Source of the DNA: a virus
Length of the DNA: 34,302 bases
Reading direction: 5' to 3' (one strand)
IMG/VR virus record: IMGVR_UViG_3300027792_000044
Location: 1-34,302 of that record
The position numbers were made by a program, and so were the translations under genes. This document shows, in pieces, positions 14,106-34,302 of this stretch. Within the stretch, counting starts at the first letter, position 1. Every line of letters begins with the position of its first letter. The notes beneath the pieces were generated by a model. It was given only the letters and a program-made list of their open reading frames with translations. It ran no database searches and was not told the origin of the DNA.

Positions 14106-15519
14106 TAATTACTTAGAAGCAATAAGCCTGTCAAAAGCAAAGTATTATACTCGAATGTATAATAAAGATAAATATAATGATTGGTTTAATAATAAAAACC
14201 GAATATATATACCTCTTAAAACTATAGAAAATAAACCAATTAAAAACAAAAAAATAGAAAATTTATTATCTAAAGAAGGATATGATATTATTGATTATCA
14301 AGCTGGATATGCACAACCTAAAACTGGTAGTAAGAATATAATTAAAATAGGTAAATTATTAAAACGTCTTTTCCCTGAACAACCGGAACTTATTAAAATG
14401 TTTGAGTCAGACCCATTAAGAGCAGGCTCAAAAATGGAAAAAAAACAAATGGTTGTTATATCAAGACATCCAATAGATGTGGCGGGAATGAGCACAGATA
14501 GAAGATGGACATCGTGTATGAGTTTAATAGATGGATGTAACAAAAACAAAGTGAAATATGATGTCCGTGGCGGGTCTATTATTGCATATTTAATAAACGC
14601 AGATGATAAAAATATTAAAAATCCTATATCAAGAATTTTAATGAAACCATATTTTATAGTAAATGATAATAATGAACCAATAGAAGATAAAACTTTTTTA
14701 ATACCAGATAAACAATATGGCATACCTAATAAATTATTTTCACAAACAGTAATGGATTGGTTAAATGAAAAACAAGGTAAATTAGAGGGGATATTTAGAA
14801 TAGCAAATAAAAAAATATATACTGATAGTGGAAAACAACAAGTTGTATTTTTAAATAAAGAAGCACAAGAACTTATAAGAATGTATAGTAAAGGTAAAGA
14901 AGATTTTAAAAAGATAAAAGAAATAATTAATACAGCTGGTTTTATACCAGATAGAATTCAAACTGGATATGGAGAAACATTATTAAGTTTAGTTGTTAGA
15001 GATTGGCCAATAGATATTGTTGAAATGTTATTAAAAAAAGGTGCAGACCCAAATGTAATAGATACAATAAACAATACAACCCTAACAGATAAAATATTAT
15101 ATAATATTGACCCATGGCATCGGATAGTAGTAGCATATGATGATAAAAAATTTCAAGAAAAACAACAGAATGATGCATATCAAAAAATAAAACTACTTAT
15201 AAAATATGGGTTAGATATAAATAAAAAAATAAATAATATACCACCATTATATAGATTTGCAAGAATGATGCCATTTAAATTGTTTAAAGCTTTTATTGAA
15301 GAATTTAATGCCGATTATAAATATAAACTATTTAATACTATATCACTAATAGACATATTAAAACAAGAAGAACCTGATAAATTAACAAGTCAATTGCCAA
15401 CAAAAAACACAACGAATATAAAAAATATACACAATATAAAAGAAATAGAACTTATAAAAATGGTAGATAGAGATTTAAAAATAAATTACTTAAATGAGTT
15501 AAATAAAAAGGGAGCTTAA
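14092..15519 (+). CDS. Tagged ankyrin-repeat protein, 475 aa
   Basis: The start is at 14092 or 14095 (ATGATG), five or eight bases after AAGGA, giving M-M-R-F-N-N-Y-L-E-A with the shared tag at 7-9. Residues about 125-215 form a conserved-looking domain with R-W-T-S-C-M-S-L and G-S-I-I-A-Y-L-I-N-A-D-D...N-P-I-S-R-I-L. I have the impression of this domain from other large-phage proteins of unknown role but cannot name it. From about 300 there are ankyrin-type repeats: G-E-T-L-L-S-L-V-V-R, then I-V-E-M-L-L-K-K-G-A-D-P-N-V, then I-K-L-L-I-K-Y-G-L-D-I-N, and a weaker final repeat. Ankyrin repeats bind proteins, so a host target is plausible. The last codons form the left arm of the terminator hairpin. 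Confidence 0.8.
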   Translation: MMRFNNYLEAISLSKAKYYTRMYNKDKYNDWFNNKNRIYIPLKTIENKPIKNKKIENLLSKEGYDIIDYQAGYAQPKTGSKNIIKIGKLLKRLFPEQPELIKMFESDPLRAGSKMEKKQMVVISRHPIDVAGMSTDRRWTSCMSLIDGCNKNKVKYDVRGGSIIAYLINADDKNIKNPISRILMKPYFIVNDNNEPIEDKTFLIPDKQYGIPNKLFSQTVMDWLNEKQGKLEGIFRIANKKIYTDSGKQQVVFLNKEAQELIRMYSKGKEDFKKIKEIINTAGFIPDRIQTGYGETLLSLVVRDWPIDIVEMLLKKGADPNVIDTINNTTLTDKILYNIDPWHRIVVAYDDKKFQEKQQNDAYQKIKLLIKYGLDINKKINNIPPLYRFARMMPFKLFKAFIEEFNADYKYKLFNTISLIDILKQEEPDKLTSQLPTKNTTNIKNIHNIKEIELIKMVDRDLKINYLNELNKKGA

Positions 15520-20076: not shown

Positions 20077-20679
20077 CTATTTATCTGGATTAATTTCAAT
20101 CCCTTGTTTTTTATCTGTACCACTTATAATTATATCTGCTGGTGGGAATTTGTTACCTAATAATTTATCAAATCCACCCTTAGCTTCAATACTTTTCCAA
20201 ACTTCAGGATGATTTTTTTGTAACCATGATATAAACATAGCTTTTATATTTTGGCCATTCTTTTTATCTGCAGTACCTAATAATTTATCAAATCCACCCT
20301 TGGCTTCAATACTTTTCCAAACTTCAGGATGATTTTTTTGTAACCATGATATAAACATAGCTTTTATATTTTGGTCATTCTTTTTATCTGCGGGTAAAGA
20401 GTTTATAAATAATTTATCAAATCCACCCTTAGCTTCAATATTTTTCCAAACTTCAGGATGATTTTTTTGTAACCATGATATAAACATAGCTTTTATATTT
20501 TGGCCATTCTTTTTATCTGTAGGTAAAGAGTTCATAAATGTTTGTATTAATTGTGAAATATCTTTACCACCTAATGAACCCTGGACATTTATGCCACCAT
20601 CATTAGTACCAATTACTTCAACAGAGTTAGGTGCCAAATTTTCATTATATTTACTTTTTAAATATTTACCGAATTTCAT
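20077..20679 (-). CDS. Protein with three near-identical 37-residue repeats, 200 aa
   Basis: The N-terminus M-K-F-G-K-Y-L-K-S-K-Y resembles the cluster's Tyr-Leu-Glu tag but has Lys instead of Glu. Residues 55-91, 98-134 and 138-174 are three copies of a 37-residue unit (D-K-K-N-x-Q-N-I-K-A-M-F-I-S-W-L..., then N-H-P-E-V-W-K and E-A-K-G-G-F-D-K-L). The copies differ at only a few residues. Linkers of 3-6 residues follow, two of which repeat I/M-N-S-L-P. The unit looks like a small all-helical bundle. No family is recognised. Flanks are a Gly-rich segment (26-40) and a polar C-terminus. The near identity shows recent duplication, and repeat number may vary between relatives. A structural, packaged or host-binding role is possible. 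Confidence 0.7.
   Translation of the reverse strand: MKFGKYLKSKYNENLAPNSVEVIGTNDGGINVQGSLGGKDISQLIQTFMNSLPTDKKNGQNIKAMFISWLQKNHPEVWKNIEAKGGFDKLFINSLPADKKNDQNIKAMFISWLQKNHPEVWKSIEAKGGFDKLLGTADKKNGQNIKAMFISWLQKNHPEVWKSIEAKGGFDKLLGNKFPPADIIISGTDKKQGIEINPDK
20158..20517 (-). repeat. Three tandem ~111-bp coding repeats
   Basis: Units lie at 20407-20517, 20278-20388 and 20158-20268, almost identical in DNA. The gaps are 18 and 9 bases. Part of the linker (…AAAGAGTT(T/C)ATAAAT) is also duplicated next to two of the units. They encode the 37-residue repeats of the 200-residue protein and keep the frame. Confidence 0.9.
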
Positions 20680-20691
20680 TTTATACCTCGT

Positions 20692-21078
20692 TTAATATTC
20701 CACATCAATTTCTTGATAATTTAAATCTATAATAATTTGGTTTTTATGTTTATCATATTCAACATGAATTTCCTTTAATTCGTAAAAAAACGATTTAATG
20801 TTTTCAATTATTTTTGATATATCGTTATTATTTTGTTTTATGTTATCAATATATATAAAAGTTTCTTCGTTTGATGTTACATCATATTCAATATCTTTTG
20901 GTGATATAGTTGTTGTAGTACCAACGGTAATATCATTTATAAATTTATTGATATTTACTCCAAAAACACTTCCAAATCCGTACACTGTATTTCCTCTACC
21001 ATCTGTTCTATATAAACTATGAAACACTTGCGGCCTGCGTTCATCAATCATTTCTAAATAATAATTTAAATCTTTCAT
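20692..21078 (-). CDS. Tagged protein, 128 aa, candidate internal head protein
   Basis: It begins M-K-D-L-N-Y-Y-L-E-M, with the shared tag at 7-9. After this comes R-R-P-Q-V-F-H-S-L-Y-R-T-D-G-R-G and then alternating beta-type sequence ending V-E-Y-D-K-H-K-N-Q-I-I-I-D-L-N. No family is recognised. Its start overlaps the stop of the next upstream gene by one base (TAATG), and it is close to the repeat protein behind it. The almost identical opening of the next gene (M-K-N-F-N-Y-Y-L-E-Q), together with an unrelated body, argues that the N-terminus is a portable signal. Confidence 0.7.
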   Translation of the reverse strand: MKDLNYYLEMIDERRPQVFHSLYRTDGRGNTVYGFGSVFGVNINKFINDITVGTTTTISPKDIEYDVTSNEETFIYIDNIKQNNNDISKIIENIKSFFYELKEIHVEYDKHKNQIIIDLNYQEIDVEY

Positions 21079-21428
21079 TATTTATCCTCAATTTCTCCAA
21101 TCGATTTTGGGTCAACAGGTATATAAGGTAAATATACATATGTATCATTTTCTTTTATTTCTGTTACTAATGTATTTTCTTGTAAATCCTTCATACTGTC
21201 TAACAAATCAATTGCTTTGGTTTTACCAGTCTTAATATTTTGAATAACTATTTTATTATTTTCTGTGTCAATACCATTTACACGAAATTGATTTTCATCA
21301 TCATCACCGGTAAATTTTTCTTCATCAACGTCTGGTGCATTTAATACTTCTTTTACATCAACACTATCGGTCTCTGTCTTTGTCTTTTCGACTTCTGCTT
21401 GTTCTAAATAATAATTAAAATTTTTCAT
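21078..21428 (-). CDS. Tagged acidic protein, 116 aa, candidate internal head protein
   Basis: The protein opens M-K-N-F-N-Y-Y-L-E-Q, with the tag at 7-9, followed by a Lys/Glu/Thr-rich segment and an acidic stretch (D-V-D-E-E-K-F-T-G-D-D-D-E-N). A short beta region (K-I-V-I-Q-N-I-K-T-G-K-T-K-A-I) with a later V-Y-L-P-Y-I-P motif may form a small SH3-like barrel. No function is known. It lies one base from the upstream gene and overlaps the downstream one by one base, inside a run of seven tightly packed genes. Confidence 0.7.
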   Translation of the reverse strand: MKNFNYYLEQAEVEKTKTETDSVDVKEVLNAPDVDEEKFTGDDDENQFRVNGIDTENNKIVIQNIKTGKTKAIDLLDSMKDLQENTLVTEIKENDTYVYLPYIPVDPKSIGEIEDK

Positions 21429-21429
21429 T

Positions 21430-21894
21430 TTAAAAACTCCTTAATTTACTTGATAACTCATCTGTAAATTGAATATTTTTGCTTGTTGGGTCCATAGTAT
21501 ATTTATCCATTAGTTTTTTTGGATCACCATGTTCCTTTTTATCTATCTTAAAAAAATTTAAAATTTCAGGACGTCGGGCAACATTTATTATGCCACTCCA
21601 TTGTCCAACTAATATCTCACCATATATATCTTTTGAAGTATTTATATTTATATTTATTTCTTTATCAGTAGAAGTTTCTATTTTTTCAACATTTAAAGTA
21701 GTTGGTATTTTTGCGGTAATTGATAAAGATGGAGATTCATTATTATGTATTACAACTTGTTCTAAAGATGGTTTATATTTATCAAATGTTTTTTGGGCTT
21801 GTTGTTCGGTTATTATACAAAATGTATCCCAAACGTACTTTGAATAATCATCTAAAATTTTATCAAACTTCTTTTCATCTATTTCTATTTTCAT
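21430..21894 (-). CDS. Unknown protein, 154 aa, in the tagged cluster
   Basis: No family is recognised. It starts M-K-I-E-I-D-E-K-K-F-D and lacks the clear Tyr-Leu-Glu tag; I-D-E at 5-7 is a possible weak equivalent. A helical N-terminal third is followed by beta-type sequence (P-S-L-S-I-T-A-K-I-P-T-T-L-N-V) and G-Q-W-S-G-I-I-N. The start overlaps the TGA of the upstream gene by four bases (ATGA), so translation is coupled. It may be a partner rather than a packaged member of the group. Confidence 0.6.
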   Translation of the reverse strand: MKIEIDEKKFDKILDDYSKYVWDTFCIITEQQAQKTFDKYKPSLEQVVIHNNESPSLSITAKIPTTLNVEKIETSTDKEINININTSKDIYGEILVGQWSGIINVARRPEILNFFKIDKKEHGDPKKLMDKYTMDPTSKNIQFTDELSSKLRSF

Positions 21895-22100
21895 TTTTCT
21901 AATTCAGCACGTAACGTTGGAAATAATTTATCATAAAACGCCTGGTCATCTATTTGTAATTCACTATTTTCTTGATAAAACTTTTTATATGCTTCCAACA
22001 CATTATCTTTTAAAGACATCAATATTTCATCTGATATATTAAAATCAAATCTTTTAAACTTTAATTCATCTATTTTTTCTAAATAAGTATTAAATTTCAT
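21891..22100 (-). CDS. Small tagged protein, 69 aa
   Basis: The protein begins M-K-F-N-T-Y-L-E-K, with the tag at 6-8, and the rest is one helical, charged domain ending L-R-A-E-L-E-K. It overlaps both neighbours by four bases in ATGA junctions, which also show that TGA is read as stop here. Small size, high charge and the tag resemble the small internal head proteins of T4-like phages. No sequence family is recognised. Confidence 0.65.
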   Translation of the reverse strand: MKFNTYLEKIDELKFKRFDFNISDEILMSLKDNVLEAYKKFYQENSELQIDDQAFYDKLFPTLRAELEK

Positions 22101-22342
22101 TTTATTTTACTATTTATAACATATTGTAGTTCTATAATAAGATTTGTTAATTTAACAAATTGTTCATTTGCCTCTTGATAAAACTTTTCTTGCTCATCTG
22201 TAATTGACCCAAATGAAGCCTTAAAAGTTTTAAACTTTTTATCAACAACTTCTATTTCTTTTGAAATTGTATCAATTTGGGTGAGGATAGTTTTTTTACT
22301 ATCCTCACCTTCACCAATTGCTTCTAAATATTCTTTTAACAT
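22097..22342 (-). CDS. Small tagged coiled-coil protein, 81 aa
   Basis: It opens M-L-K-E-Y-L-E-A-I-G, a very clean version of the tag (Tyr5-Leu6-Glu7, then Ala). The remainder is helical with heptad-like spacing (I-D-T-I-S-K-E-I-E-V-V-D-K-K-F-K) and ends in a hydrophobic helix. It is coupled to the upstream acidic gene (TAATG) and to the downstream 69-residue gene (ATGA). An internal head protein is likely; it is otherwise unknown. Confidence 0.65.
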   Translation of the reverse strand: MLKEYLEAIGEGEDSKKTILTQIDTISKEIEVVDKKFKTFKASFGSITDEQEKFYQEANEQFVKLTNLIIELQYVINSKIK

Positions 22343-22803
22343 TACGCTAGGTTTTCTTCTTCACCAGGCGCACTATCTTCAACAGAGTCCATAGCTGGTT
22401 CTTCATCAGAACTTCCCATGTCTTCTTCACCTTCTTCTTCTTCGTCTTCATATTGGAATTCATTTACTTTATCAAGTATTGCATTCATGAAATCTGAAAA
22501 CTCTTCATCTGTTTCGGAAGATTGTTGTGCGCTATCAATAATAGCTGCAATAAGTTCTATTTTGCCTTCGTTTGATACGCTGTCAATATCAACTTCACTT
22601 AAAATATCATCAGCTTCTTGTGCTGGATCAACTTCGTCGTCCATAGTTTCCATTTCTGGTGCACTTGAAGTATCATCAATATCTTTAACTTCTTCAGCGT
22701 TATCTACGTCTTCTTCATTTATAGATCTTTTTTGACGCTTAAGCATCTTTCCAAGTTCTTCTAAATAAAACTTATCAATTTTTTCCGTAAATTTATCACT
22801 CAT
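22342..22803 (-). CDS. Very acidic tagged protein, 153 aa
   Basis: The N-terminus reads M-S-D-K-F-T-E-K-I-D-K-F-Y-L-E-E, with the tag at 13-15, then a short basic patch (K-R-Q-K-R-S). Almost all the rest is acidic (for example D-E-E-E-E-G-E-E-D-M), with only one likely folded helix region (K-I-E-L-I-A-A-I-I-D-S-A). Such composition suggests a disordered DNA-mimic or a scaffold/core component of the prohead. It is the first gene of the run of small genes and has an AAGGAG site and a TATAAATA box upstream. Confidence 0.7.
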   Translation of the reverse strand: MSDKFTEKIDKFYLEELGKMLKRQKRSINEEDVDNAEEVKDIDDTSSAPEMETMDDEVDPAQEADDILSEVDIDSVSNEGKIELIAAIIDSAQQSSETDEEFSDFMNAILDKVNEFQYEDEEEEGEEDMGSSDEEPAMDSVEDSAPGEEENLA

Positions 22804-22836
22804 CTTTTTCTCCTTAAAACTTAATATAAAATTTTA

Positions 22837-22844
22837 TATTTATA
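22837..22844 (-). promoter_or_regulatory. Candidate late promoter box ahead of the small tagged genes
   Basis: TATAAATA on the minus strand, part of the palindrome TATTTATAAATA, lies about 34 bases upstream of the acidic gene's start in the only gap between the neck gene and the run of tagged genes. The position is suggestive; the octamer alone is common in this AT-rich DNA. Confidence 0.4.
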
Positions 22845-22860
22845 AATATATTACACGAAT

Positions 22861-23400
22861 TTATTCGCTTTCACTATAATTTTTAATAATATCTGGAACA
22901 TTGTTTAATATTGTTTGTTCTGCCGCAATTTGATAATTTACATATCTAGTGTTATACATATCAACTTCAATTATATTACTCACAACATAAAAAAAGAATT
23001 TTCTATCTATTTGTGGGTCTAAACCAAGATATGTAATTCTAAATATATCACCTTCATGTGGAGTATATTCTTCTAAATAATTATACATGGCAGCAATATT
23101 TACATAAAAATCAATTTCTCTTATTTCTAAATGTCCCAATCTACTTAATTCTTTTAATATCGGATTTACTTCTATTCTACCATAAACATTATATGGCCCG
23201 GTAAATATTAATTTATCATCACCCTCCTCTCCATATAATTGATCTAAATTATCTAAATTAGCCTGACTGGCTGTTCGATTTATATTCCACCATTTAATTT
23301 CATGTGAAAATTTTTCAAACAACTCACTAGTCATTGCATCGACTAATGCATGTTCTGGGTTATCAGGCTCATATATCTTAGCGGCAATAGGACGATACAT
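22861..23400 (-). CDS. Probable neck / head-completion protein (gp14-like)
   Basis: A 179-residue protein. The pattern agrees loosely with T4 gp14: an early E-x-x-x-x-x-x-x-H-E-I-K-W-W region, then D-Q-L-Y-G-E, then a strand-rich part, then P-H-E-G-D-I-F-R-I-T-Y followed by K-F-F-F-Y-V-V and a late N-Y-Q-I-A-A-E. In gp14 the matching parts are the 'G-V-E-C-Y-Y', 'L-I-F-G-E-D' and 'P-K-E-G-D-L-I-Y' segments. Position also fits: it lies on the transcript after the gp13-like gene and before gp15. It is shorter than T4 gp14 (256 aa). The match is by eye, so another head-closure protein is possible. Confidence 0.55.
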   Translation of the reverse strand: MYRPIAAKIYEPDNPEHALVDAMTSELFEKFSHEIKWWNINRTASQANLDNLDQLYGEEGDDKLIFTGPYNVYGRIEVNPILKELSRLGHLEIREIDFYVNIAAMYNYLEEYTPHEGDIFRITYLGLDPQIDRKFFFYVVSNIIEVDMYNTRYVNYQIAAEQTILNNVPDIIKNYSESE

Positions 23401-25326
23401 TTATTTTTCCTCAATCTTATTAGATGAAATCGGTGATAATTTTCCGCCGGATTTTTCTCCACCAGACGTTACTGTACCTGTCACATCTTTAACACCTTTT
23501 ACAAAAGAACCAAGTGCCGAACCAAGTGCCGCTGCTTTTGATTGCTTTATATTATGTGCGCTAAATACTTTTGATATAACAGCTTTAACCCAGCTTGGAT
23601 TAGTAAGCGACGATGTTATAGCACTAATCGCTGTTGGTAATCTAGATAAATCTATTCCATATTTTTTAATATCACTTAAATATAATGCTCGCATATTAGA
23701 AACTCTTTGTGTAACAGTATTTACAACTTGGTCTAATGTTTCATTATTTGTAAATATATTTTTAATATAATTTAAAAATACATTATAATCTGCCGTTAAA
23801 TCTTTAAAAGTTAAAATTTGATAATGTTCTCTAAAAACAGATTTTGCCCAAGCTATAGGACCTTCATTATATGTTTCTTCATTATAATATATATCTTCAA
23901 AATATTTTTTAATACTTGGGTCAATATATTGATATAATTCAGCATTTGTTATATTTATTCCCTTTGGTGGTTGTTTTTTAGTTTTTTTAGTTCTTGTTAT
24001 CCTTGATAATTTATTACTTTCTACAGCTTCCGCATTTTCTGCAGCTACATCTTCTTCTGTTTTATTTATACAAAGGTTTATTGTATTGATTGTGGCCCAT
24101 AATAAAAATACCCAAATTGTTTCTCTTCGGGCATCAAGTATTTTATTTTTTTCTGTTGAATTTTTTGTTCCTATTGGAGCAATTACTTCTTCAATTGTTT
24201 TATCAATACCAACAGCGGTTTTTTGTAAAACCTTATGTATACTCTTAAACATTAAACCGTTTTGTTCTTCTAATAATGTTGTATATATTTCTGGAATAGA
24301 TATATTTTTTTCGTCATCGTTTTGTACTTCTTTTTCAAGATTGTTAAAAAATATTTCAAAATTTTCTGGATTATCAATATGAAAGACATCAAAAATTTGT
24401 TCCTTAAAGTCTGGTATATTTTTAACAGCATCTTCAATAAGTTTTTGATCTACATTTGATAATATGTTTTGAATATTTTCATCAGGCATTGCAATAAATT
24501 TACCAATAGCTTTAGTATCGTTTTTTGTATCTGTCATTGAATTCCAAATATTATCTATTTGTTCATCTGTTACTGTTTTATATGCTTCTTTAATTTTATT
24601 GGCAAAAATATTTTTTTTATTTTTGTCTATCTGAAGTTCATCAAATGCATATTCAATGTTCTTCATATCTAATTTTTTAATTTTTAATGCACTTATCATC
24701 TCTAATATTTTTTCAAAAAATAATTTATCAAATAAATTAAAATTAACATTATTCTTTTTTAATTGGTCATTTGTAAATTCTCTAGCAGATCTATCGGCCT
24801 CAGATTTTTTTTGTTCAGTTGTTTGAGGATCTCTGTTATCTCTTACTGGTGGAATGTCATCTTTTCCTGTAATTTCTTTTGCAATATCTTCCACTTTCTT
24901 TTTATTATTTGGATCATTAGCTTTCTTATTTAATAATTCTTGTTGTTTGGTATCTAAATCATATTGATTTGAAACTTTGGTAATATTTTTTTGTTTAATT
25001 TTTTTATCTTTTTTAATAAATTTTTGTTTAGTTTCTTTATCAACCACTTTGGATTCTGGTGAAATAGCACGACCCCTTAATGTATCCCAATCGTCACCTG
25101 TTAAAAACTTTGAAGCAGCATCAGTAGCTTTAGTTTCTTTTTCTTTTGCTTTAAGTGTTTGTTTTTTTACTTTATCTTCACGAGCCTGTTGGGCTTTACT
25201 GACTTCATTATATCCATAAAGTTCATTAATAATTTTATCATACTGTTCGCTTGTTTTTTGAGCTTCATTAATATACTCATCAATATTTGGGTGTAAACAT
25301 AATATGTCTTTAAAAATATTATCCAT
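23401..25326 (-). CDS. Large unknown head-region protein, 641 aa
   Basis: No family is recognised. The N-terminus contains D-E-Y-I-N-E-A-Q at 16-23. The Tyr-Ile-x-Glu-Ala form (18-22) is the same as that in the prohead protease and close to T4's capsid-targeting peptide, so a cut after E21 is possible. Residues about 40-190 are highly charged and Lys-rich, probably disordered or coiled. The middle is helical. One hydrophobic helix lies at 403-421 (I-W-V-F-L-L-W-A-T-I). The C-terminus is Ala/Gly/Ser-rich. It sits between the two neck genes, where T4 has none. It may be a packaged protein delivered into the cell, the hydrophobic helix perhaps inserting in the membrane; this is inference. Confidence 0.7.
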   Translation of the reverse strand: MDNIFKDILCLHPNIDEYINEAQKTSEQYDKIINELYGYNEVSKAQQAREDKVKKQTLKAKEKETKATDAASKFLTGDDWDTLRGRAISPESKVVDKETKQKFIKKDKKIKQKNITKVSNQYDLDTKQQELLNKKANDPNNKKKVEDIAKEITGKDDIPPVRDNRDPQTTEQKKSEADRSAREFTNDQLKKNNVNFNLFDKLFFEKILEMISALKIKKLDMKNIEYAFDELQIDKNKKNIFANKIKEAYKTVTDEQIDNIWNSMTDTKNDTKAIGKFIAMPDENIQNILSNVDQKLIEDAVKNIPDFKEQIFDVFHIDNPENFEIFFNNLEKEVQNDDEKNISIPEIYTTLLEEQNGLMFKSIHKVLQKTAVGIDKTIEEVIAPIGTKNSTEKNKILDARRETIWVFLLWATINTINLCINKTEEDVAAENAEAVESNKLSRITRTKKTKKQPPKGINITNAELYQYIDPSIKKYFEDIYYNEETYNEGPIAWAKSVFREHYQILTFKDLTADYNVFLNYIKNIFTNNETLDQVVNTVTQRVSNMRALYLSDIKKYGIDLSRLPTAISAITSSLTNPSWVKAVISKVFSAHNIKQSKAAALGSALGSFVKGVKDVTGTVTSGGEKSGGKLSPISSNKIEEK

Positions 25327-25334
25327 GTTACCTC

Positions 25335-26102
25335 TTAGATTTGCATAAATGGCATAGGTATTTGCAGCTTCATTAATTCTTCTTTTAATGCGGCCATTTC
25401 TTCTTTTGCTTCACTCTTTAACGCATCTCCATCTGGAGCTATATTCATTCCTGCTGCATTATATGCACTTAATTTACTTCTAATAGTACCTAATATATGT
25501 TTAGCTCGCGCAAGCGCCCAATCTTTTATCCACTGTTCATTATCTAATTCTTGGTCTGTTGGTAATTGTTGATATACTATTCCAACGTGCGGAATTTGTC
25601 TTCTTGCCGGATATAAAACTATTTTATTATTTAATATTTCCCAACCATAATCATAAGATGCTAATTTTTTAAAATCTTCTAATCTTTGTTGATATAAATA
25701 CCAACCGACCATATCAAAGTTTTCTAACAGATTTCCATATTCATGTGTTGCAATAACATACATTCCTGTGTCGTCTGTAATTCCCCCGCCACCAGCAATG
25801 CTTCTTTGAAAAGTATCTAATACTCCTTGTGGAAATACAATATCTATTATACGCTCTTTATTAATATCATCTGGAATAGTTATTGTGTTATCAGCACCAA
25901 CAGGAACAACTCTATATCCATGTGACATTGCAGCATGTTTATAAAATACACCAACAGCTTCAATAATTGATAATAATAAATGTTGTTCTGTTAGCTCAAC
26001 ACGAATTACTGGATAACCAAGATTTAATAAAATATAATTTTTTATATTTTCAAATCTACCTTGATATGTTGTTGAATTTACATTTTGTGCTATATAGCTC
26101 AT
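25335..26102 (-). CDS. 13: Neck protein / head completion (gp13-like)
   Basis: A 255-residue protein with the features of T4-type neck proteins. The N-terminus has an R-x-E-N-I-K-N-Y-I-L-L-N-L-G-Y-P motif followed by L-T-E-Q-H-L-L-L-S-I-I-E-A-V. The middle has P-D-D-I-N-K-E-R-I-I-D-I-V-F-P. Near the end are K-D-W-A-L-A-R-A-K-H-I-L-G-T-I-R-S-K-L and an A-A-L-K-E-E-L helix. Gp13-type proteins bind under the portal and close the filled head for tail attachment. It is nearer in length to other myophage neck proteins than to T4 gp13 (309 aa). An AAGGAA site precedes the ATG. Confidence 0.7.
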   Translation of the reverse strand: MSYIAQNVNSTTYQGRFENIKNYILLNLGYPVIRVELTEQHLLLSIIEAVGVFYKHAAMSHGYRVVPVGADNTITIPDDINKERIIDIVFPQGVLDTFQRSIAGGGGITDDTGMYVIATHEYGNLLENFDMVGWYLYQQRLEDFKKLASYDYGWEILNNKIVLYPARRQIPHVGIVYQQLPTDQELDNEQWIKDWALARAKHILGTIRSKLSAYNAAGMNIAPDGDALKSEAKEEMAALKEELMKLQIPMPFMQI

Positions 26103-26105
26103 ATT

Positions 26106-27326
26106 TTATTCCTTCGCTGGTCTTCCTCTTTCAAAATTACCGCTCTTAATTTCTTTAGCTAATATTCCTGTTAATTCACTTTGCGGGTCATGACTGTCTT
26201 GTCTTAAATATGCTCTTACATCTTTCATTTCTTTTAATATTTTTTCAGATACTTTATCTAATGCAGATGTTAATTCTTTGCCGTCAAAGGTTCTAAAATC
26301 ATTATCATTTACAAATTGTTTTGTAATCTTTCGAATAAATTGTTTAAATGTTTTATAGGTAAATTCATTTTCTTCTTTTTCAACAGTTTTATTTTTCTTT
26401 ATTTTCATTTTATAAGAATTAACTATTTTTTGTCCTCGTGGTCGGTCTTTCTCTATTAAATTAAAATATTTTTCTAAATCTGCCAAGGATGTAATTTTCA
26501 TATCCATTTCCGGCCATAAAATATTTAAGCTATGTATCCTTTCTAATTGTTCTTTGTTTTTATTTAATGTTAAAATATATTTATTTAATTTTGTTTTATA
26601 TTCTGGATTTGTTTGTATTAATGTTTTTAATTCATTTAATGCAACCTCTATTTCCCCAATCAAAGATATATTCCCACCTAATATAAGTTTATTTATAAAA
26701 TCATATACAGGTTGTGAAGTTTCTGTTGAATAGTTTAATATATTATCGATGTTAAAATCATCTGGCATTAATTTAGATAAAATTTGAATAGTTTCTGTTA
26801 TTGCATTTTTGGTTGTAACAATATCTTCTTTTTTAAGTTCATGAGCCAATATTGTTTTTCTTTTATTTGAAGTAGTATTCAATGTATTTCTTATCTGGTC
26901 TAATGTTTCTTTTTCATTATTTAATATATCATTCTTTATTTCTAATGCAATTTTTTTTAGTTCTTCTTCACTTACTTTTCTTTTAATTATATTATTTAGT
27001 ATTGGTATAAATTTCTCACTTATAAATTGTTTTGAGTCAAACATATTTTTAATATCTTCAACATTCCATTTTGGTTTCTGAGAAATTTTACTTAAAGCAA
27101 TACCTACATACACTGCTATGTCATTTAATTTTTCTTTTCTAAGCTCTTGTATTACTTGATATTCTATAGATTTTTTTCCATGTTTTGCGGCTTCACGTTT
27201 AATTATAGCATCTATATTTTCTAATTTTATTTCTTTTCTTCCTCTTCTATCAATCGCTTCAAAATATTTATCAATATCATTTTGGTCGATAAAAAAACTT
27301 TGATAAACTTGATTTAATTTATTCAT
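26106..27326 (-). CDS. Unknown head-region protein, 406 aa, with tag-like N-terminus
   Basis: An unrecognised, helical and very charged protein, without membrane segments. Residues 20-26 read K-Y-F-E-A-I-D; Tyr-Phe-Glu-Ala is the same shape as the Tyr-Leu-Glu-Ala tag of the small internal genes but lies further in. It is the first gene after the capsid terminator and directly precedes the gp13-like gene by a few bases. AGGA lies seven bases upstream of the ATG. T4 has the vertex protein gene 24 in the comparable place after 23, but no capsid-fold similarity is visible here. A core or packaged protein is more likely than a vertex protein. Confidence 0.65.
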   Translation of the reverse strand: MNKLNQVYQSFFIDQNDIDKYFEAIDRRGRKEIKLENIDAIIKREAAKHGKKSIEYQVIQELRKEKLNDIAVYVGIALSKISQKPKWNVEDIKNMFDSKQFISEKFIPILNNIIKRKVSEEELKKIALEIKNDILNNEKETLDQIRNTLNTTSNKRKTILAHELKKEDIVTTKNAITETIQILSKLMPDDFNIDNILNYSTETSQPVYDFINKLILGGNISLIGEIEVALNELKTLIQTNPEYKTKLNKYILTLNKNKEQLERIHSLNILWPEMDMKITSLADLEKYFNLIEKDRPRGQKIVNSYKMKIKKNKTVEKEENEFTYKTFKQFIRKITKQFVNDNDFRTFDGKELTSALDKVSEKILKEMKDVRAYLRQDSHDPQSELTGILAKEIKSGNFERGRPAKE

Positions 27327-27390
27327 GTTATATCCTAATAAAATAATTTTTATAATTATATTTTAAGAACATATAGCAAAAAACAATAAA

Positions 27391-27420
27391 TAAAAAAAGG
27401 GAAGACAATCGTCTTCCCTT
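27391..27420 (-). terminator. Strong rho-independent terminator after the major capsid gene
   Basis: A perfect 10-bp stem AAGGGAAGAC / GTCTTCCCTT (27397-27406 and 27411-27420) with a 4-base loop, followed on the minus strand by TTTTTTTA. It ends the portal-to-capsid transcript 27 bases beyond the capsid stop, so the genes to the left need their own promoter or read-through. Confidence 0.9.
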
Positions 27421-27446
27421 TGAAGTTACATTATTCTACGCTATTT

Positions 27447-29006
27447 TTATTGGAAAATAGCTGGGAAATTCTTAAGAATAAGTCTTGCGTATTGATATTC
27501 TCCCATAAGAATTAAATTCTTAGGTCTTACTGCGGTTGTTCCAAACTCATCTTTATATTTGTCATAGAAAGTTTTTCCATAACGAGTATAGAAGATTTTG
27601 CTAGGATCGCCAGTTTCTTGGTTGATAATAGTTGGTGTTGCTGTTATTGGTAAATATGGGCAGTGTACATATCCTGTATCAAGTGCTCCAGTACCTTTAT
27701 ATCCAATTAACAATTCATTCTTAGGATAGTTAGGATCACGATAGAACTTAATCTTTCCACCTAATGAACCTGTATAAGTAATATCTTTACCATCATAAAC
27801 TACACCAGAACCAACAAATCCAGGAACGCGATCTAAGAATGATAATGTTTCAGGATTTCCTAATACCCAGTTACCATATCCTAAACGACCGATATTCCAT
27901 ATTCTTGCGCAAAGCTTATTTATTGCATCAATAGTAACACGATGTGCATCTTCATAACGTCCAGTGATTGTTATACCACCCGTTGTTGCTAAAACAGAAT
28001 AATCTAATGCTTGTACTGTACCAGCAAGTCTTCTAAGGTCTGCTACGATTTCACGGTTAATTTCAGCAGTTAACTCAGTCTTCATCATCTCAGCTAACTC
28101 TGTGTCTAAATTAATACCATGGTAAGTCTTAAGATCGTAAGCAGCATCAAGAGTATATTTACCTCTCAATTGTCTACGAATTAAAGATACATATTGTTCA
28201 CTTATGCTGAAGCTAATTTCAGGAATATTAGGTTCTGCTTCTCCATAATATTCATAACTTAATTCATAAGTATATGCAGTTGTTAAAGTACCAGATACTG
28301 CTCTTGTAGATTTATTAAATACTAATGAATCCATACCACCAACTGTAATAGTTCCAAATACTGTTGCAGGTCCAACTGTACCAGCTGTTAAATATGAACC
28401 TGGGAAGTTAGCTTGTGCTACAACTTGGTTTGATGCATCAATTGCTGCAACGTTTAAAGAACCGTTCATTACAGTAATTTTAGTACCATAAAGATTAGCA
28501 GTTGATAATGCAAAAGTTCCTAAGCTATAAGTTGCTAATGCTGCAGTTCCAGCAACACACGCTATAACTTGTTGTGATGAATAATAAGGGTCAATACCTA
28601 CGTTTGAAAGTCCTGCAGGAATAGGCGATACAAATAATTCATCACCCTCCGCTGATAATCCCTTATCATTATCTTTTACCCACTTCATTGTAAAGATAGG
28701 TGATTTGGGTGTTGGCATAGCTTGTAGTCCAACTAATTCTGCTCCTACTATGTTAGGAATAACACGAGCTATAAGACCTAATAATGCAAGGTTAACACCT
28801 GTAAAGGCGCTTGATTTGATTTGGTCTTCAGCTATAAGTCTTGGGTCACTGTGAAGATAATTTAAATAGTTTTCTAAAACTATTGCGGTGTTACGAGCCA
28901 TATGTTCGCTACTGATTCCACCGTTTGCGTTTAGGGCTTTGTCCCATTTTTTTAATAAAGTTGCTTCATGTTTACGTCTTGATTCGTATGCTTCGTTGTA
29001 ATACAT
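27447..29006 (-). CDS. 23: Major capsid protein (gp23-like)
   Basis: A 519-residue HK97-fold capsid precursor, almost the length of T4 gp23 (521 aa). The N-terminal region contains R-L-I-A-E60-D-Q-I-K-S-S-A-F-T-G. Ile-Ala-Glu is the gp21-type cleavage motif and falls where T4 gp23 is cut (after residue 65). The following V-I-P-N-I-V-G-A-E-L-V-G-L-Q-A-M and the late K-I-K-F-Y-R-D-P-N-Y motif match the family. A short beta insertion (about 170-255) may be an outward domain. AGGAGG lies upstream of the ATG. The gene is last before the terminator and follows the scaffold gene. Confidence 0.94.
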   Translation of the reverse strand: MYYNEAYESRRKHEATLLKKWDKALNANGGISSEHMARNTAIVLENYLNYLHSDPRLIAEDQIKSSAFTGVNLALLGLIARVIPNIVGAELVGLQAMPTPKSPIFTMKWVKDNDKGLSAEGDELFVSPIPAGLSNVGIDPYYSSQQVIACVAGTAALATYSLGTFALSTANLYGTKITVMNGSLNVAAIDASNQVVAQANFPGSYLTAGTVGPATVFGTITVGGMDSLVFNKSTRAVSGTLTTAYTYELSYEYYGEAEPNIPEISFSISEQYVSLIRRQLRGKYTLDAAYDLKTYHGINLDTELAEMMKTELTAEINREIVADLRRLAGTVQALDYSVLATTGGITITGRYEDAHRVTIDAINKLCARIWNIGRLGYGNWVLGNPETLSFLDRVPGFVGSGVVYDGKDITYTGSLGGKIKFYRDPNYPKNELLIGYKGTGALDTGYVHCPYLPITATPTIINQETGDPSKIFYTRYGKTFYDKYKDEFGTTAVRPKNLILMGEYQYARLILKNFPAIFQ

Positions 29007-29035
29007 TATAAAATCCTCCTATAATTGCTTTTTAA

Positions 29036-29914
29036 TTATTGTACGTTTGGAAAAAGTATTTCCATCATTGCTTTTTCTCTATCATCAAAACCATCAAATT
29101 TATTTTCTTTTGGTTTAACAACTTTGTCAGCTGTTATTGATTCAGATTCAAAGATTGGGGAAACTTTTTCTTTTTTAACGAATTTTTTTTCTTTGATATT
29201 TGCAGTTACTTCTTCTATAACTGGTTGTATCGTTTTACGTTTAAAAGTTTTAACACCCTTTGTGTCACCACCGTTTTCGATCATTTCAACAATAAGGTTA
29301 AATCTTTCATATATTTCATTATTGGATTTTGCACCACTAATAAAAGTCTTTACTTGTTCTGCATATTCAACTGGAAATTCTTTCATTAAAGTAGAAATAA
29401 TTTTTTCTCTTTTTATTTCTTGCTTCTCTTCATTAAGACTCTTTTTTTCTTCTTCAAGAGTTTTCCATTGATCTAGCATTTCTTTTTGTTCTTCATTAAG
29501 TAATATTGGGGCCATTACTTGTTTAACTTTTTCAAGAGTTTTAAATTCAACAGATTCAAAGAAATCATGTTTAACTCTTTCCTCAATATCGACATATACC
29601 TCATGAAGAGCTTTTGTCATATTTTCCGTATATTCTTTTTGTAAATCGTTTGTAGCCAAGTCAAATGCTTTTTCACAATCTTTTTTAAATAAATCAAATG
29701 CTTTTTCAGCATCTTCATAAAATAAATCAAATGATTTTTCAGCATCTTTTTTAAGAACATATTTAGACAAATCAACATCTTTGTCTTCATTAGTAATGCT
29801 TTTCTTTACATTGTTTTCTATCTTGGTCTTATAATCTTCAAAAAAAATATCAAGCGCTTTAATTTGTTCTTCTGTAATTTCTATATTACCTAAAATTTTT
29901 TCTAAATCCTTCAT
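29036..29914 (-). CDS. 22: Prohead core scaffold protein (gp22-like)
   Basis: A 292-residue acidic, helical protein in the exact T4 position between the protease and the capsid gene. It carries three tandem 11-residue repeats at 57-89 (D-A-E-K-S-F-D-L-F-Y-E and variants), then long coiled coil with L-L-N-E-E-Q-K-E-M-L and E-E-K-K-S-L-N-E-E. The C-terminus is D-R-E-K-A-M-M-E-I-L-F-P, much like the conserved ending of gp22-type scaffolds that contacts the capsid protein. It forms the core around which the shell assembles and is degraded by the protease. Direct sequence similarity is weak, as usual for scaffolds; place and structure carry the call. Confidence 0.8.
   Translation of the reverse strand: MKDLEKILGNIEITEEQIKALDIFFEDYKTKIENNVKKSITNEDKDVDLSKYVLKKDAEKSFDLFYEDAEKAFDLFKKDCEKAFDLATNDLQKEYTENMTKALHEVYVDIEERVKHDFFESVEFKTLEKVKQVMAPILLNEEQKEMLDQWKTLEEEKKSLNEEKQEIKREKIISTLMKEFPVEYAEQVKTFISGAKSNNEIYERFNLIVEMIENGGDTKGVKTFKRKTIQPVIEEVTANIKEKKFVKKEKVSPIFESESITADKVVKPKENKFDGFDDREKAMMEILFPNVQ
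29648..29746 (-). repeat. Three tandem 33-bp repeats (hendecads) in the scaffold gene
   Basis: Three in-frame 33-base units encode 11-residue repeats of the form D-(A/C)-E-K-(S/A)-F-D-L-x-x-x. Eleven-residue periods favour a nearly straight, slightly right-handed coiled coil. The DNA units are similar enough to suggest fairly recent duplication. Confidence 0.8.
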
Positions 29915-29933
29915 ATTTTATTAAGCCTCCAAT

Positions 29934-29941
29934 TATTTATA
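29934..29941 (-). promoter_or_regulatory. Candidate T4-type late promoter ahead of scaffold and capsid genes
   Basis: TATAAATA on the minus strand, followed by ATTGGAGGC (ribosome site) and the scaffold ATG about 20 bases on. T4 has extra promoters near genes 22-23 for high capsid output, so the position is sensible. The octamer is the late consensus but is not rare at this AT content. Confidence 0.45.
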
Positions 29942-29981
29942 TATTAAAATATTTAATATAAAAATACTAATTTTTTTTATA

Positions 29982-30650
29982 TTAAACGTTTGTATATTTT
30001 TTATTTAAGTCTATCATTACGTTCCAAAGCGTTTTATTTGTGTTTGTTATATATGATGCAAATTGATATTCTTCTTCAACATATCTATTTAAAATAGCAT
30101 TATGCGTTGATGGGTCAGTCACATAATCATATGTTATCATATTATAATCTTCAGGTACATAAATAAAACCATCAGAAGGATTATAAACAGGTTTACCACC
30201 TAATCCTCTTGATGATACCGCTGGTTTAAATCCTTTACGTACTAATGCTGCCAATTTATCTCCAGTACCATAATCACCTTCTAAAACAGATGATTTACCG
30301 TAAACAGTTTTACCATTCATTTCTAATACTGTACATAAAGCACAAGAATTTTCTAAACCTTTTCTTTGGGTTAAGATTAAATCTTTTTCTGTTTCACCTG
30401 GAAGTGGATGGTCCATACCCATTGGTAAACCATTACGTTCTTCTATAAATTCACGTAATTTTTCGGTTTCTCTTTGTAACAAAGATAACGGATATATTCT
30501 TTTATTTTTATTGGGTTTTTCAGCGGTTTGAAATTCACCTTCTAAAATAATTTGACTTTTAATTCCATCGGCAGTTTCTATTTTTGATTCAGTATATCCA
30601 AACTTTTTAGAAACAAAAGCTTCGGATATATATGGCATTAATTTATTCAT
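29982..30650 (-). CDS. 21: Prohead maturation protease (gp21-like)
   Basis: A 222-residue serine protease that cuts capsid and core proteins during head maturation. N-K-N-K-R-I-Y-P (47-54) is the family's early motif. The catalytic residues are probably H81 in M-D-H-P, S146 or S147 in V-S-S-R-G-L-G (145-151), and an acid in Y-D-Y-V-T-D-P (174-180). E-G-D-Y-G-T-G-D-K-L-A (124-134) is also typical. The N-terminus M-N-K-L-M-P-Y-I-S-E-A has an Ile-Ser-Glu-Ala at 8-11 that looks like a self-cleavage site. Length is close to T4 gp21 (212 aa). It is coupled to the upstream 124-residue gene. Confidence 0.92.
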   Translation of the reverse strand: MNKLMPYISEAFVSKKFGYTESKIETADGIKSQIILEGEFQTAEKPNKNKRIYPLSLLQRETEKLREFIEERNGLPMGMDHPLPGETEKDLILTQRKGLENSCALCTVLEMNGKTVYGKSSVLEGDYGTGDKLAALVRKGFKPAVSSRGLGGKPVYNPSDGFIYVPEDYNMITYDYVTDPSTHNAILNRYVEEEYQFASYITNTNKTLWNVMIDLNKKYTNV

Positions 30651-30652
30651 AT

Positions 30653-31027
30653 TTAACCTTTAATGTTTTTTAATATTAAAGTTATAAGTTGTTCTTCAGA
30701 TCCCATACCTTCAGTACTTTCTTCAAGATGTCTTATAATTTCTTCAAAATGATCTGGAGTCCATTTTTGTTGTATTTCCATAATTTGATCTACTATACCA
30801 TACATTTCTTGCATACAATCCATTGATTCATCTATAAGGTCATCTGCACTATTAAATTCTTCATCATTATCAAATCTTGGATTATCTTCTAACGGCGGTT
30901 GCTCTTGTTGTTCAAATAATTTTGTTATTTTATCTTGTTGTTTTTCTGTGATATTTTTTCCTATGCCAAATGTTTTTTTTGACCCCATAGGAATCATACC
31001 TTCTAAAATTGCTTTATTGTTTTTCAT
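30653..31027 (-). CDS. Probable prohead core protein, 124 aa (position of T4 67/68)
   Basis: A small acidic protein between the portal group and the protease, where T4 has core genes 67 and 68. Residues 6-10 are A-I-L-E-G, matching the protease motif Ile-x-Glu followed by a small residue, so the first nine residues may be removed. The remainder is acidic with a helical E-S-M-D-C-M-Q-E-M-Y-G segment. No sequence family is recognised. The start overlaps the upstream stop by one base (TAATG). The core-protein role is inferred from place and cut site. Confidence 0.65.
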   Translation of the reverse strand: MKNNKAILEGMIPMGSKKTFGIGKNITEKQQDKITKLFEQQEQPPLEDNPRFDNDEEFNSADDLIDESMDCMQEMYGIVDQIMEIQQKWTPDHFEEIIRHLEESTEGMGSEEQLITLILKNIKG

Positions 31028-32193
31028 TATATTGTTACCTCAATGTCTGCTTTTCCTATAACATTATTATCTGTCATTGATTCTACATCATCAAATCCAC
31101 GAGTATTATCGTTCATCATATCTGATGCATCATGTTGAAAACGGTCATTAAAGCTATCAATTATTTCTTTTACAAGTCTGTCATTTATCATTCCAGTTCT
31201 TAACATATATTCAGCTTGCATTTTTCTTTCACTTATAAAGTGCATATCTTCTGGTGTTATAGAACCAATAGAGGATAATGCTAATGTAAGTTCACTTACT
31301 AATTGTCTTAAATCTTCTAATGAATATAGGTCCATATGAAATTTTAGGAACTTTGGCATATCTTGATTTGATTTAGCTAAGTTAAAAACCGAAGAGCTTG
31401 ATACTGATGGTTCTTGTTCTTCAAATATAGTTTTGATAATACTTGTAATTTGTTTTGTATTATCAAGGATATTAAAATCTTCATTTAATGATGCTTTAAT
31501 TTTTACTACAGCTTTTGGTACAGCTATTTTTAATTCTTGTTTTGAAACTGAATTGATTATTTCGTTTGTTATATCTTCGTTATATTTTTTACTTAAGTTT
31601 TCTTGAAGTTTTGTAAACAACGAAATACTATTCTTAAAAGTTTCATATACTTTTTCTGATTCAGTATATACTTTTTCTATTTTATCTATTTCAAATATAC
31701 TTTTTATAATATCATTATTTTCGTCAAATAGATTATAGATTTTTTTATACTCAGCTTTAATTTTTTCCATTTCGTCACATTTGCTTTGTAATGAATTTCC
31801 AATTTTTTTTCTAAATTGTTTAGTACTCTTATGGTACATTATTGGTTCTTCATTATAACTTGCATTTGGTAATGTTTTTATTGTTTCTTTAAGTTCCTTG
31901 ACTGCTGCATTAAAATCTTCTTCAGTAAAGACTTTCTTGATTGTTGTAAAAAGTTTATTAGCGTTTTCGCTAAATGTTTCTTTTTCGGTTTTTGATTTAG
32001 GTGATAATAAAATTGCGTCATTTGTATCAAAAGAAAATTCACCATTACTTTCATTATATTTTATTTCATATAACGCTGATGTTTTTTTGTTTTTAATAAC
32101 TAAAGAATTGTTTTCTGCCAAAGAATAAAATTCAACATCATTAAATTTTTCTACTTTGTCTTTAACAAGCTTGATTTTATCATAATTACTCAT
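31027..32193 (-). CDS. Probable prohead core or portal-associated protein, 388 aa
   Basis: An unrecognised, mostly helical protein just downstream of the portal gene. The N-terminal 50 residues look beta-rich (F-Y-S-L-A-E-N-N-S-L-V-I-K), and long charged helices follow (T-K-L-Q-E-N-L-S-K-K-Y-N-E-D). Near the C-terminus L-A-L-S-S-I-G-S-I-T-P-E-D-M and an M-N-D-N-T-R-G-F-D-D tail are seen. There is no tag at the N-terminus. T4 has small core genes 67 and 68 in this place, but this protein is much larger. Its ribosome site is GAGGAA. A core role is inferred only from context. Confidence 0.6.
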   Translation of the reverse strand: MSNYDKIKLVKDKVEKFNDVEFYSLAENNSLVIKNKKTSALYEIKYNESNGEFSFDTNDAILLSPKSKTEKETFSENANKLFTTIKKVFTEEDFNAAVKELKETIKTLPNASYNEEPIMYHKSTKQFRKKIGNSLQSKCDEMEKIKAEYKKIYNLFDENNDIIKSIFEIDKIEKVYTESEKVYETFKNSISLFTKLQENLSKKYNEDITNEIINSVSKQELKIAVPKAVVKIKASLNEDFNILDNTKQITSIIKTIFEEQEPSVSSSSVFNLAKSNQDMPKFLKFHMDLYSLEDLRQLVSELTLALSSIGSITPEDMHFISERKMQAEYMLRTGMINDRLVKEIIDSFNDRFQHDASDMMNDNTRGFDDVESMTDNNVIGKADIEVTI

Positions 32194-32258
32194 TTATGTT
32201 CCTCGTGTTTATATAAGAATTTATACAATATATTTTAATTTGTTTTTATAAAAAAACT

Positions 32259-34302
32259 TTATTTTTTCTTGATTTTTTTTGTTATTGCAGGTTTAACTCC
32301 TTCATTATAAACAGTGTTTATAGACATATCTAATTGACCTAATTCACCGTTATGCATCATTTCAAATATATTATTCTTCTTTTTCTCATATTTTGTTTTT
32401 ATTGTTTTAATTTTTTCAATGGTGTTAAAATATTGTTCATTATGTTCAACCATTTGTTTTTTAGCCATATTAAGTTTATTTATTAGTTGTCTTTTTTTAT
32501 TTAGGGCAACTTCATATTGTTTATCATCTGTAGACTCTAATATTTCTAACGATACTTTAGTATTAAGTATAGCTTTATCAATTATTTCTTCTATATATGT
32601 ATTTGTATTCTTTTGAATAAATTCTGCATTTTCTGCAGGAGGCGGCGGTCCCAATTGTGCTTCAACTTCTGCTGGCAGTTCTTCTCCTGTTGCTGGTGGC
32701 ACTTCTCCACCTTCTGCTGGCATTTCTCCACCACCAGTAGGTTCAAAACCTCCACCTGCTCCACCACCTCCACCTGCTCCTGTATTAGGTTGAGATTGTA
32801 AATCTTCTGCTCCTTCTGGTCTTTCTTCTGGCTCCATAAAATTAAATATATTTTCCCCAGCTGCTTGTAATTGTGAAAGCTTTAATAGTTCTACAATTTC
32901 GTCATCATTTAGTTTTAGAATGTCTCTATAAATTAAATAATCCGGATAAAAAACTCCTTCGCTGTTATTAGCTTTCATATTTCCTATAAGTCCCCAGCGT
33001 TGTGTTTCTATTTCTATCTGTTCTTTATCAGCAATTGTAGATGGGTTATTCATAAGAATAATTAAATCATTTATATCTTTGTTTGAAAACCCTTGTAATT
33101 TTAATTCTATAATTGCTAATTTATACATTTGATATAAAAAGAAACGTTGTATTCTTTTTATTCTTTTTGAAAATGGAACCGATTTAGAACTTAAGTTTAA
33201 GTTAGCATTTGCAAAAGTATCATCAAATAAATATTGTCTTGGTATTCCCAAAGGTGGAAATATTTTATCTCGTATAAATTCTACGTCTGCAATATCTCCC
33301 AAATTATTCGCTTGTGGTAAAGTATCAATAGAATTTCCATCTGATCCTTGTCTTTTTGGAATTACTATATCTTCTATTGTTCCAAAAACATCTTGAACAA
33401 CATCGGGTCTATTTAAGTCTGTGTTCATTAAATCTAATTTCTTTTTTTTCTTTCCATAGTTTACAGCATCATATGCATACTTGATTGCTTTTTCACCCAT
33501 CAAGTTTCCAACATCAACATTAAATATTCTACGTTCTGCTGCACGAGTTACACGTGCTATAAGCATTGCTTTTTCCATTAGTTTTAATTGTTCTATTGGT
33601 GCTAATATAGAATCAATAATTGATTTGCCATAAACACCATATTTACTTGATGGTATTCTAAAATGTAATATTCTCCATGGAAAAATTGCTTCATCCTCTT
33701 CGCTGTCTTTTGTTAATGATTTTATTTTATAACTATAAAAACCTTCTCTTGGGTCTTGCGTATTTTTTGATGCTTTGAATCCAATTAATACACCATTTTT
33801 TTCTACACGTTCTATTTGTTCTTTTGGTATAGGTAATATTTTTAATATAAAATATCCAGATTGTGATACAACTACTTCGTAAAAATCATCACCAAATCCA
33901 CATAAATTATAAACTATTTGCCAGCCTTTATCATATATACCAATTCTTTCAAACATATTTTCAACACATTGTTTTACTTCTTCTTTTGGATGAATTATAT
34001 GTAAAACATTTCCATCCTGGTCTTCTGTCATTGTTTCATCTGCGTATATAGTTAATGCGCCTTCTATTTCTGGATATGATTGGGCAAATTCCAATCTTTT
34101 ATATCTTTGTGTTCTTAATATTTTATCTTTTTCAATACTGTCTAACATTCCAATAATTCTGTTAGTAGTAAGTCCACCTAAAGAATTAAATACATCATCT
34201 CCACCCTTTAGCATTAAAGGAATATCATCTGGAGATAACATATCATAATTTTTTTCTCCAGTTACTTCATCTTCGCCATCTGTTCTTTGAATTTTACGAT
34301 TT
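32259..34302 (-). CDS. 20: Portal protein (gp20-like), N-terminus beyond the window
   Basis: The frame stays open to the right edge. An ATG at 34241 has its nearest GGAG too far upstream (14 bases), and the preceding codons (R-T-D-G-E-D-E-V-T-G) read as protein, so the true start is probably outside. The visible part has L-T-I-Y-A-D-E-T-M-T-E-D, D-K-G-W-Q-I-V-Y-N-L-C-G-F-G-D-D-F-Y and R-I-P-S-S-K-Y-G-V-Y-G-K-S. It also has I-E-D-I-V-I-P-K-R-Q-G-S-D-G-N-S-I-D-T-L and F-I-R-D-K-I-F-P-P-L-G-I-P-R-Q-Y-L, all classic T4-type portal motifs. A Gly/Pro/Glu-rich disordered segment (about 485-550) precedes a long helical C-terminus. The dodecameric portal is the DNA gate and the head-assembly starter. 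Confidence 0.93.
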   Translation of the reverse strand, partial: NRKIQRTDGEDEVTGEKNYDMLSPDDIPLMLKGGDDVFNSLGGLTTNRIIGMLDSIEKDKILRTQRYKRLEFAQSYPEIEGALTIYADETMTEDQDGNVLHIIHPKEEVKQCVENMFERIGIYDKGWQIVYNLCGFGDDFYEVVVSQSGYFILKILPIPKEQIERVEKNGVLIGFKASKNTQDPREGFYSYKIKSLTKDSEEDEAIFPWRILHFRIPSSKYGVYGKSIIDSILAPIEQLKLMEKAMLIARVTRAAERRIFNVDVGNLMGEKAIKYAYDAVNYGKKKKKLDLMNTDLNRPDVVQDVFGTIEDIVIPKRQGSDGNSIDTLPQANNLGDIADVEFIRDKIFPPLGIPRQYLFDDTFANANLNLSSKSVPFSKRIKRIQRFFLYQMYKLAIIELKLQGFSNKDINDLIILMNNPSTIADKEQIEIETQRWGLIGNMKANNSEGVFYPDYLIYRDILKLNDDEIVELLKLSQLQAAGENIFNFMEPEERPEGAEDLQSQPNTGAGGGGGAGGGFEPTGGGEMPAEGGEVPPATGEELPAEVEAQLGPPPPAENAEFIQKNTNTYIEEIIDKAILNTKVSLEILESTDDKQYEVALNKKRQLINKLNMAKKQMVEHNEQYFNTIEKIKTIKTKYEKKKNNIFEMMHNGELGQLDMSINTVYNEGVKPAITKKIKKK

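Follow-up and report, generated by a model that had tools for sequence, protein, structure and literature searches.

The internal proteins IPI-IPIII and Alt of phage T4 start with a short segment that ends in x-E-A and is cut by the prohead protease gp21, and the same type of N-terminal site occurs in the core proteins gp67, gp68, and gp22. The sequences given in the T4 record are MKTYQEFIAE-A (IPII and IPIII), MEGLIE-A (gp67), and MLKEQLIAE-A (gp22). The T4 internal proteins are small (95-193 residues, with the site at residue 10) or, like Alt, encoded away from the neck genes. Here we analyze two large proteins, called 406 and 641 after their lengths in residues, whose genes lie beside gp13- and gp14-like neck genes in the IMG/VR virus record IMGVR_UViG_3300027792_000044 (34,302 bases, G+C content 26.8%); this whole stretch is referred to as the window. 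On balance, sequence comparison makes it probable that both are lineage-specific T4-type head proteins, targeted to the prohead, trimmed by an S77 protease, and kept inside the mature head. If so, the mechanism would be ordinary T4-type capsid targeting and trimming, the proteins themselves would be new, and the set of gp21-type substrates would be widened by two large members, unrelated to known families and encoded at the neck end.

The N-terminal I-D-E-Y-I-N-E-A of 641 is similar to Y-Q-E-F-I-A-E-A of T4 IPII and IPIII, and an S77 protease is encoded in the same operon, but the putative sites lie further in (at residue 21 or 23) and no sequence relation to IPI-IPIII or Alt was found. Like the T4 core proteins, 406 and 641 are encoded in the head operon, although they are much longer. 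Large internal head proteins are also represented by the giant-phage ejection proteins SPN3US gp53 and gp54 and by P1 DarB and DarA. The SPN3US propeptides and the DarB N-terminal packaging signal resemble the ends of 406 and 641, except that the former comprise 124-130 residues and have the motif A-x-E. Ejection proteins of the T7 gp16 type are likewise large and largely helical, with predicted membrane segments, but belong to short-tailed phages, whereas 641 has a single such helix. These comparisons follow PMC7411985, PMC8954989, PMC10052503, and PMC9024508. No relation of 406 or 641 to the SPN3US or P1 proteins was found in the phage collection, and none to T7/P22-type ejection proteins in PHROGs, Pfam, PDB, and 50,697 phage records.

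Two large genes in a T4-type head operon

The minus strand of the window encodes a T4-type set of head and tail proteins (Table 1), the tail sheath and tail tube matching phrog_23 and phrog_45 of PHROGs, respectively. The two large open reading frames (ORFs) flanking the gp13-like gene, reported in an initial annotation of the window, are indeed present, and T4 has no counterparts there, as that annotation held: its genes 13 and 14 are adjacent, and the interval between genes 23 and 24 holds only segD. The 406, gp13, 641, and gp14 genes are nearly contiguous, with gaps of 3, 8, and 0 bases, and this block begins downstream of a terminator-like hairpin. Both large genes have an ATG start preceded by a plausible ribosome-binding site. 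The T4 late promoter pattern TATAAATA has 31 matches in the window (18.5 expected), none of them between the capsid and 406 genes. As in the T4-type systems of capsid-targeted internal head proteins, the phage encodes its own S77 prohead protease, in which H81, S146-S147, and D175 are invariant in the alignment with T4 gp21.

Table 1. Features of the window discussed in the text
Feature	Coordinates	Strand	Evidence or comment
Portal protein, gp20 type	32259..34241	-	PF07230, E 3.2e-50
Prohead protease, peptidase S77 (gp21 type)	29982..30650	-	PF03420, E 6e-16; ISEA at residues 8-11
Scaffold-like protein (gp22 position)	29036..29914	-	Position; [LI]xE sites exceeding shuffles
Major capsid protein, Gp23 family	27447..29006	-	PF07068, E 4.5e-57; own YNEA at residues 3-6
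Terminator-like hairpin after capsid gene	27396..27421	-	11-bp stem, then T run
406-residue protein, between capsid and gp13-like genes	26106..27326	-	ORF; 400-residue homologue (30% identity, E 5.9e-41)
YFEA codons, residues 21-24 of 406, putative prohead-protease site	27255..27266	-	Matched by YNEA in the alignment with the homologue
gp13-like neck protein (head-tail adaptor Ad2)	25335..26102	-	phrog_211, E 2.7e-17
641-residue protein, between gp13-like and gp14-like genes	23401..25326	-	ORF; 506-residue homologue in the same place in G001
INEA codons, residues 19-22 of 641, putative prohead-protease site	25261..25272	-	IFEA at residues 10-13 in the homologue
Hypervariable tract of 204 bp in the 641 gene	24490..24693	-	Contains 18 of the 36 differences seen against the near-identical contig across window 20408-34302
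Hydrophobic segment, residues 403-421 of 641	24064..24120	-	Homologue has one at about 310-329
C-terminal part of 641, residues 504-636, its best conserved stretch	23419..23817	-	31% identity to the homologue, E 8.4e-9
gp14-like head-closure protein	22861..23400	-	44% identical to the G001 protein

Conservation and N-terminal motifs in a second phage

Two relatives of the window were found. One is a near-identical contig of 22,665 bases (99.7% identity over 13.9 kb), and the sole further relative is G001, a distant phage contig of 116,958 bases represented here by loci L005 and L030. The capsid proteins of the window and G001 are 58% identical over the best segment and 61% over the alignment, and the gp13 proteins match with a phmmer E-value of 5.2e-77. 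The gene order is the same in G001, where a 400-residue homologue of 406 is followed by gp13, a 506-residue homologue of 641, and gp14. The G001 gp14 matches phrog_679 (head closure Hc2, E 1.7e-4); the gp14-like protein of the window itself does not. The homology of 641 to the 506-residue protein is weak but real, since a local alignment also covers residues 242-636 (E 2e-11 with BLOSUM45 and no composition correction). In G001, the 406 homologue is preceded by a 442-residue protein (L030 10-1338) that matches phrog_1250, of unknown function (E 6.1e-24), and weakly an AAA family (E 0.0091, below its cut-off); it has no counterpart between the capsid and 406 genes of the window.

The tag-like motifs Y-I-N-E-A (residues 18-22 of 641) and Y-F-E-A (residues 21-24 of 406) of the initial annotation were confirmed, and both have equivalents in G001, IFEA in the 506-residue homologue and YNEA at residues 5-8 of the 400-residue one. 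In the alignment of 406 with its homologue the Y, E, and A coincide; apart from the start methionine, these are the only matches among the first 33 residues. The N termini of 641 and its homologue were left unaligned by the aligner, so this motif is common by its presence near the start rather than by column. According to PMC9026906, gp21 cleaves after L/I-X-E, which fits INE-A of 641 and IFE-A of its homologue. Further, the capsid protein (YNEA) and the protease (ISEA) carry this type of motif in both phages.

We compared the number of motifs starting in the first 30 residues with the number that internal parts of the same proteins would predict. The proteins were hand-picked from ORF lists excluding nested and antisense ORFs (36, 22, and 21 proteins of the window, L005, and L030, respectively). 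The motif [YI]xEA, selected after the sequences were seen, occurs in seven of the 36 window proteins (0.3 expected), two of the 22 on L005 (0.7), and two of the 21 on L030 (0.3), or in 11 of 79 in total against 1.3 expected, about eight times the background. For the looser [ILVYF]xE[AGS] the count is 17 of 79 (8.1 expected), and L005 is not enriched (3/22; 3.4 expected). Thus the enrichment is genuine but sensitive to the choice of motif.

Outside these two relatives, the searches gave no homologue of either protein. Neither they nor their homologues have a convincing match in the databases listed above, scans of the collection returned homologues only in the near-identical contig and G001, and scans of genome contigs with the capsid and 406 alignments gave no matches. 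Comparison of the 406, 641, and gp14 profiles by HHalign with 83 ORFs of at least 180 residues from eight loci yielded a top probability of 4%. We attribute the weak hits to chance: 406 with phrog_11121, a group of unknown function (E 0.0019), 641 with DUF2999 (E 0.0055, below its cut-off), the 400-residue homologue with phrog_2685 (E 0.015), and the profile of 641 with AriB (44 positions, E 0.049). The two proteins were not met in the literature, where, as they are nameless, no search was directed at them by name. Close to its gp13 and sheath genes, Vibrio phage 2.275.O encodes an 862-residue coil-containing protein (L033 12076-14661) that has IFEG at residues 7-10; HHalign found no homology between it and 641.

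Fate of the proteins and alternative readings

Several observations lead us to the head-protein reading: the tight 406-gp13-641-gp14 block in a T4-type head operon, with the same order in G001; the motif in both proteins and both homologues, at otherwise poorly conserved ends; the same type of motif in the capsid protein and protease of both phages, together with the T4 precedents; and the internal-site counts, hydrophobic segment, and low-confidence helical models described below. We infer that 406 and 641 are present in virions, cut, and retained there. They would be made along with the capsid and neck proteins and brought into the prohead by their N-terminal ends, where the S77 protease would trim 406 after E23 and 641 after E21, leaving predicted new ends at Ala24 and Ala22, and the long remainders would then stay within the mature head. 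The product of 406 would most simply be an internal helical head protein. The 641 product, which combines a single hydrophobic helix with a C-terminal region that is conserved, is the better candidate to exit with the DNA and touch the host inner membrane.

The single hydrophobic helix attributed to residues 403-421 of 641 is there, though modest by the Kyte-Doolittle scale (1.38, with a usual cut of 1.6 and a stretch at 1.73 in the soluble capsid protein). By the Wimley-White octanol scale (-10.8) it ranks third among the 36 window proteins, after two evident membrane proteins. The 506-residue homologue likewise has a single strong hydrophobic segment, which ranks first among the 21 L030 proteins examined (-7.9). 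Both proteins thus probably retain a helix that either lies in a membrane or is buried. An amphipathic C-terminal helix was dropped as evidence: the moment of the conserved KQ-KAA block is unremarkable (0.21), and the strongest C-terminal stretch is surpassed by 21 of 624 stretches of 641 and, in the homologue, by three of 489. AlphaFold2 models, each made from two sequences, are all-helical and of low confidence (mean pLDDT 51.1 for 406 and 32.8 for 641).

The distinction between retention and degradation was approached by comparing the counts of [LI]xE beyond residue 30 in the real and in shuffled sequences. The T4 scaffold gp22 has 13 sites (4.7 in shuffles) and the window scaffold 10 (5.0), with six (4.0) in its G001 homologue; IPI-IPIII have none. 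No excess was seen in 406 (7 and 8.1) or 641 (9 and 7.8), nor in the 506-residue homologue (5 and 4.2), and the 400-residue homologue is depleted (1 and 5.7, lower tail 0.012). Thus 406 and 641 lack the surplus of internal protease sites found in degraded scaffold, a feature of prohead core proteins that is clear here as a rule only for T4 gp22, and the two proteins probably stay in the head, retention being weakly favored over degradation.

Several facts weigh against the reading as head proteins that are cut and retained. YFE of 406 and YNE of its homologue, with Y at P3, break the strict T4 L/I-X-E rule. The counts of internal sites discriminate poorly for so short a motif, as the window scaffold itself has one [ILY]xE[AGS] beyond residue 30. 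T4 gp67 also shows no excess (2 and 1.6 in shuffles). MAFFT places the hydrophobic segments of 641 and its homologue at different positions of the alignment. Finally, in the contig that is 99.7% identical, the 641 gene is interrupted by a stop at codon 225, which weighs against an essential role; either the phage may do without this gene, or the contig may have been assembled from a mixture.

The reading of the initial annotation, that the motifs are tag-like cut sites and that the helix of 641 might suit an ejected protein, is partly supported: the motifs are kept in both distant homologues despite unconserved surroundings, and the hydrophobic segment has a counterpart there. The T4 precedent also fits non-ejected fates, exemplified by gp67 and gp22. 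Indeed, 406 and 641 could belong to the prohead core like gp67 and gp68, shaping the prohead and then, once cut, leaving or persisting as fragments, as their I/L-x-E-A-like ends and position within the head operon would allow. We consider this unlikely, given the lack of excess internal sites just described, with depletion in the 400-residue homologue, and the fact that the usual gp67/gp68 place, between the portal and protease genes, is already taken by genes of 388 and 124 residues. The hydrophobic helix of 641 could equally serve membrane-bound prohead assembly, tethering the prohead to the inner membrane as it grows, until the protease releases it. PMC9026906 describes T4 proheads coming off the membrane upon proteolytic maturation, and the helix has its counterpart in G001. 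The predicted cut, however, is near the N terminus and far from residue 403, so that cutting would leave the helix in place, and such a non-ejected assembly factor seems quite improbable. Least credible is a place outside the portal vertex as neck or head-completion proteins with coincidental motifs, suggested by the gp13 and gp14 neighbors. The motifs are retained in the homologues of both proteins, and among residues 1-30 of the gp13-like and gp14-like proteins there is no [ILVYF]xE[AGS] in either phage. Moreover, of the loci that encode a relative of gp13 (25 in all), the window and G001 alone have homologues of 406 or 641; the other 23, several of them short, lack them, which argues that these are not standard neck parts.

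Within the head-protein reading, ejection and membrane insertion of 641 are plausible given its predicted hydrophobic segment. A stronger version, in which 641 is a dedicated ejection protein of a T4-like contractile phage, trimmed in the head, leaving with the DNA, and inserting into the inner membrane with 406 as a partner to serve the many similarly tagged cargo proteins encoded nearby, is distinctly doubtful. If the head-protein reading holds, the two proteins would also make it possible to ask whether membrane-active proteins are ejected by contractile-tailed phages.

Sequence variation and other tagged genes

The 204-bp tract of the 641 gene differs from the near-identical contig in 16 codons; 12 of these changes are not silent, among them the stop. 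The other 19 genes compared contain 16 silent and four replacement codons, one gene being aligned over 272 of 603 bases only. A diversity-generating retroelement was rejected as the source, because searches of the window, of the near-identical contig, and of the examined parts of G001 yielded no template-like copy, and the differences are not restricted to one base. We read the tract as strain recombination or a mixed assembly. The portal gene has a second, small cluster of six closely spaced differences at 32673-32715.

Many small genes of both phages start with a tag ending in Y-L/I-E (window 10816-15519 and 20077-22803; L005 12379-19457). Within their first 30 residues, 11 of the 36 window proteins, 406 included, have Y[ILF]E (about 1.0 expected), as do nine of the 22 on L005 (about 0.6 expected). 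Judging by their ends, the small proteins look like head-packaged cargo. Some tagged proteins carry an enzyme domain or repeats: a poly(A) polymerase head domain (L005 13475-13846, E 6.3e-14), ankyrin repeats (window 14092-15519, E 2.6e-4), and, in a huge phage, a NADAR domain (L034 16377-16874, E 2.3e-19); packaging of NADAR and related proteins in virions is already argued in PMC9503650. Finally, the 200-residue gene at window 20077-20679 contains three repeats of 120-129 nucleotides at 20159-20536.

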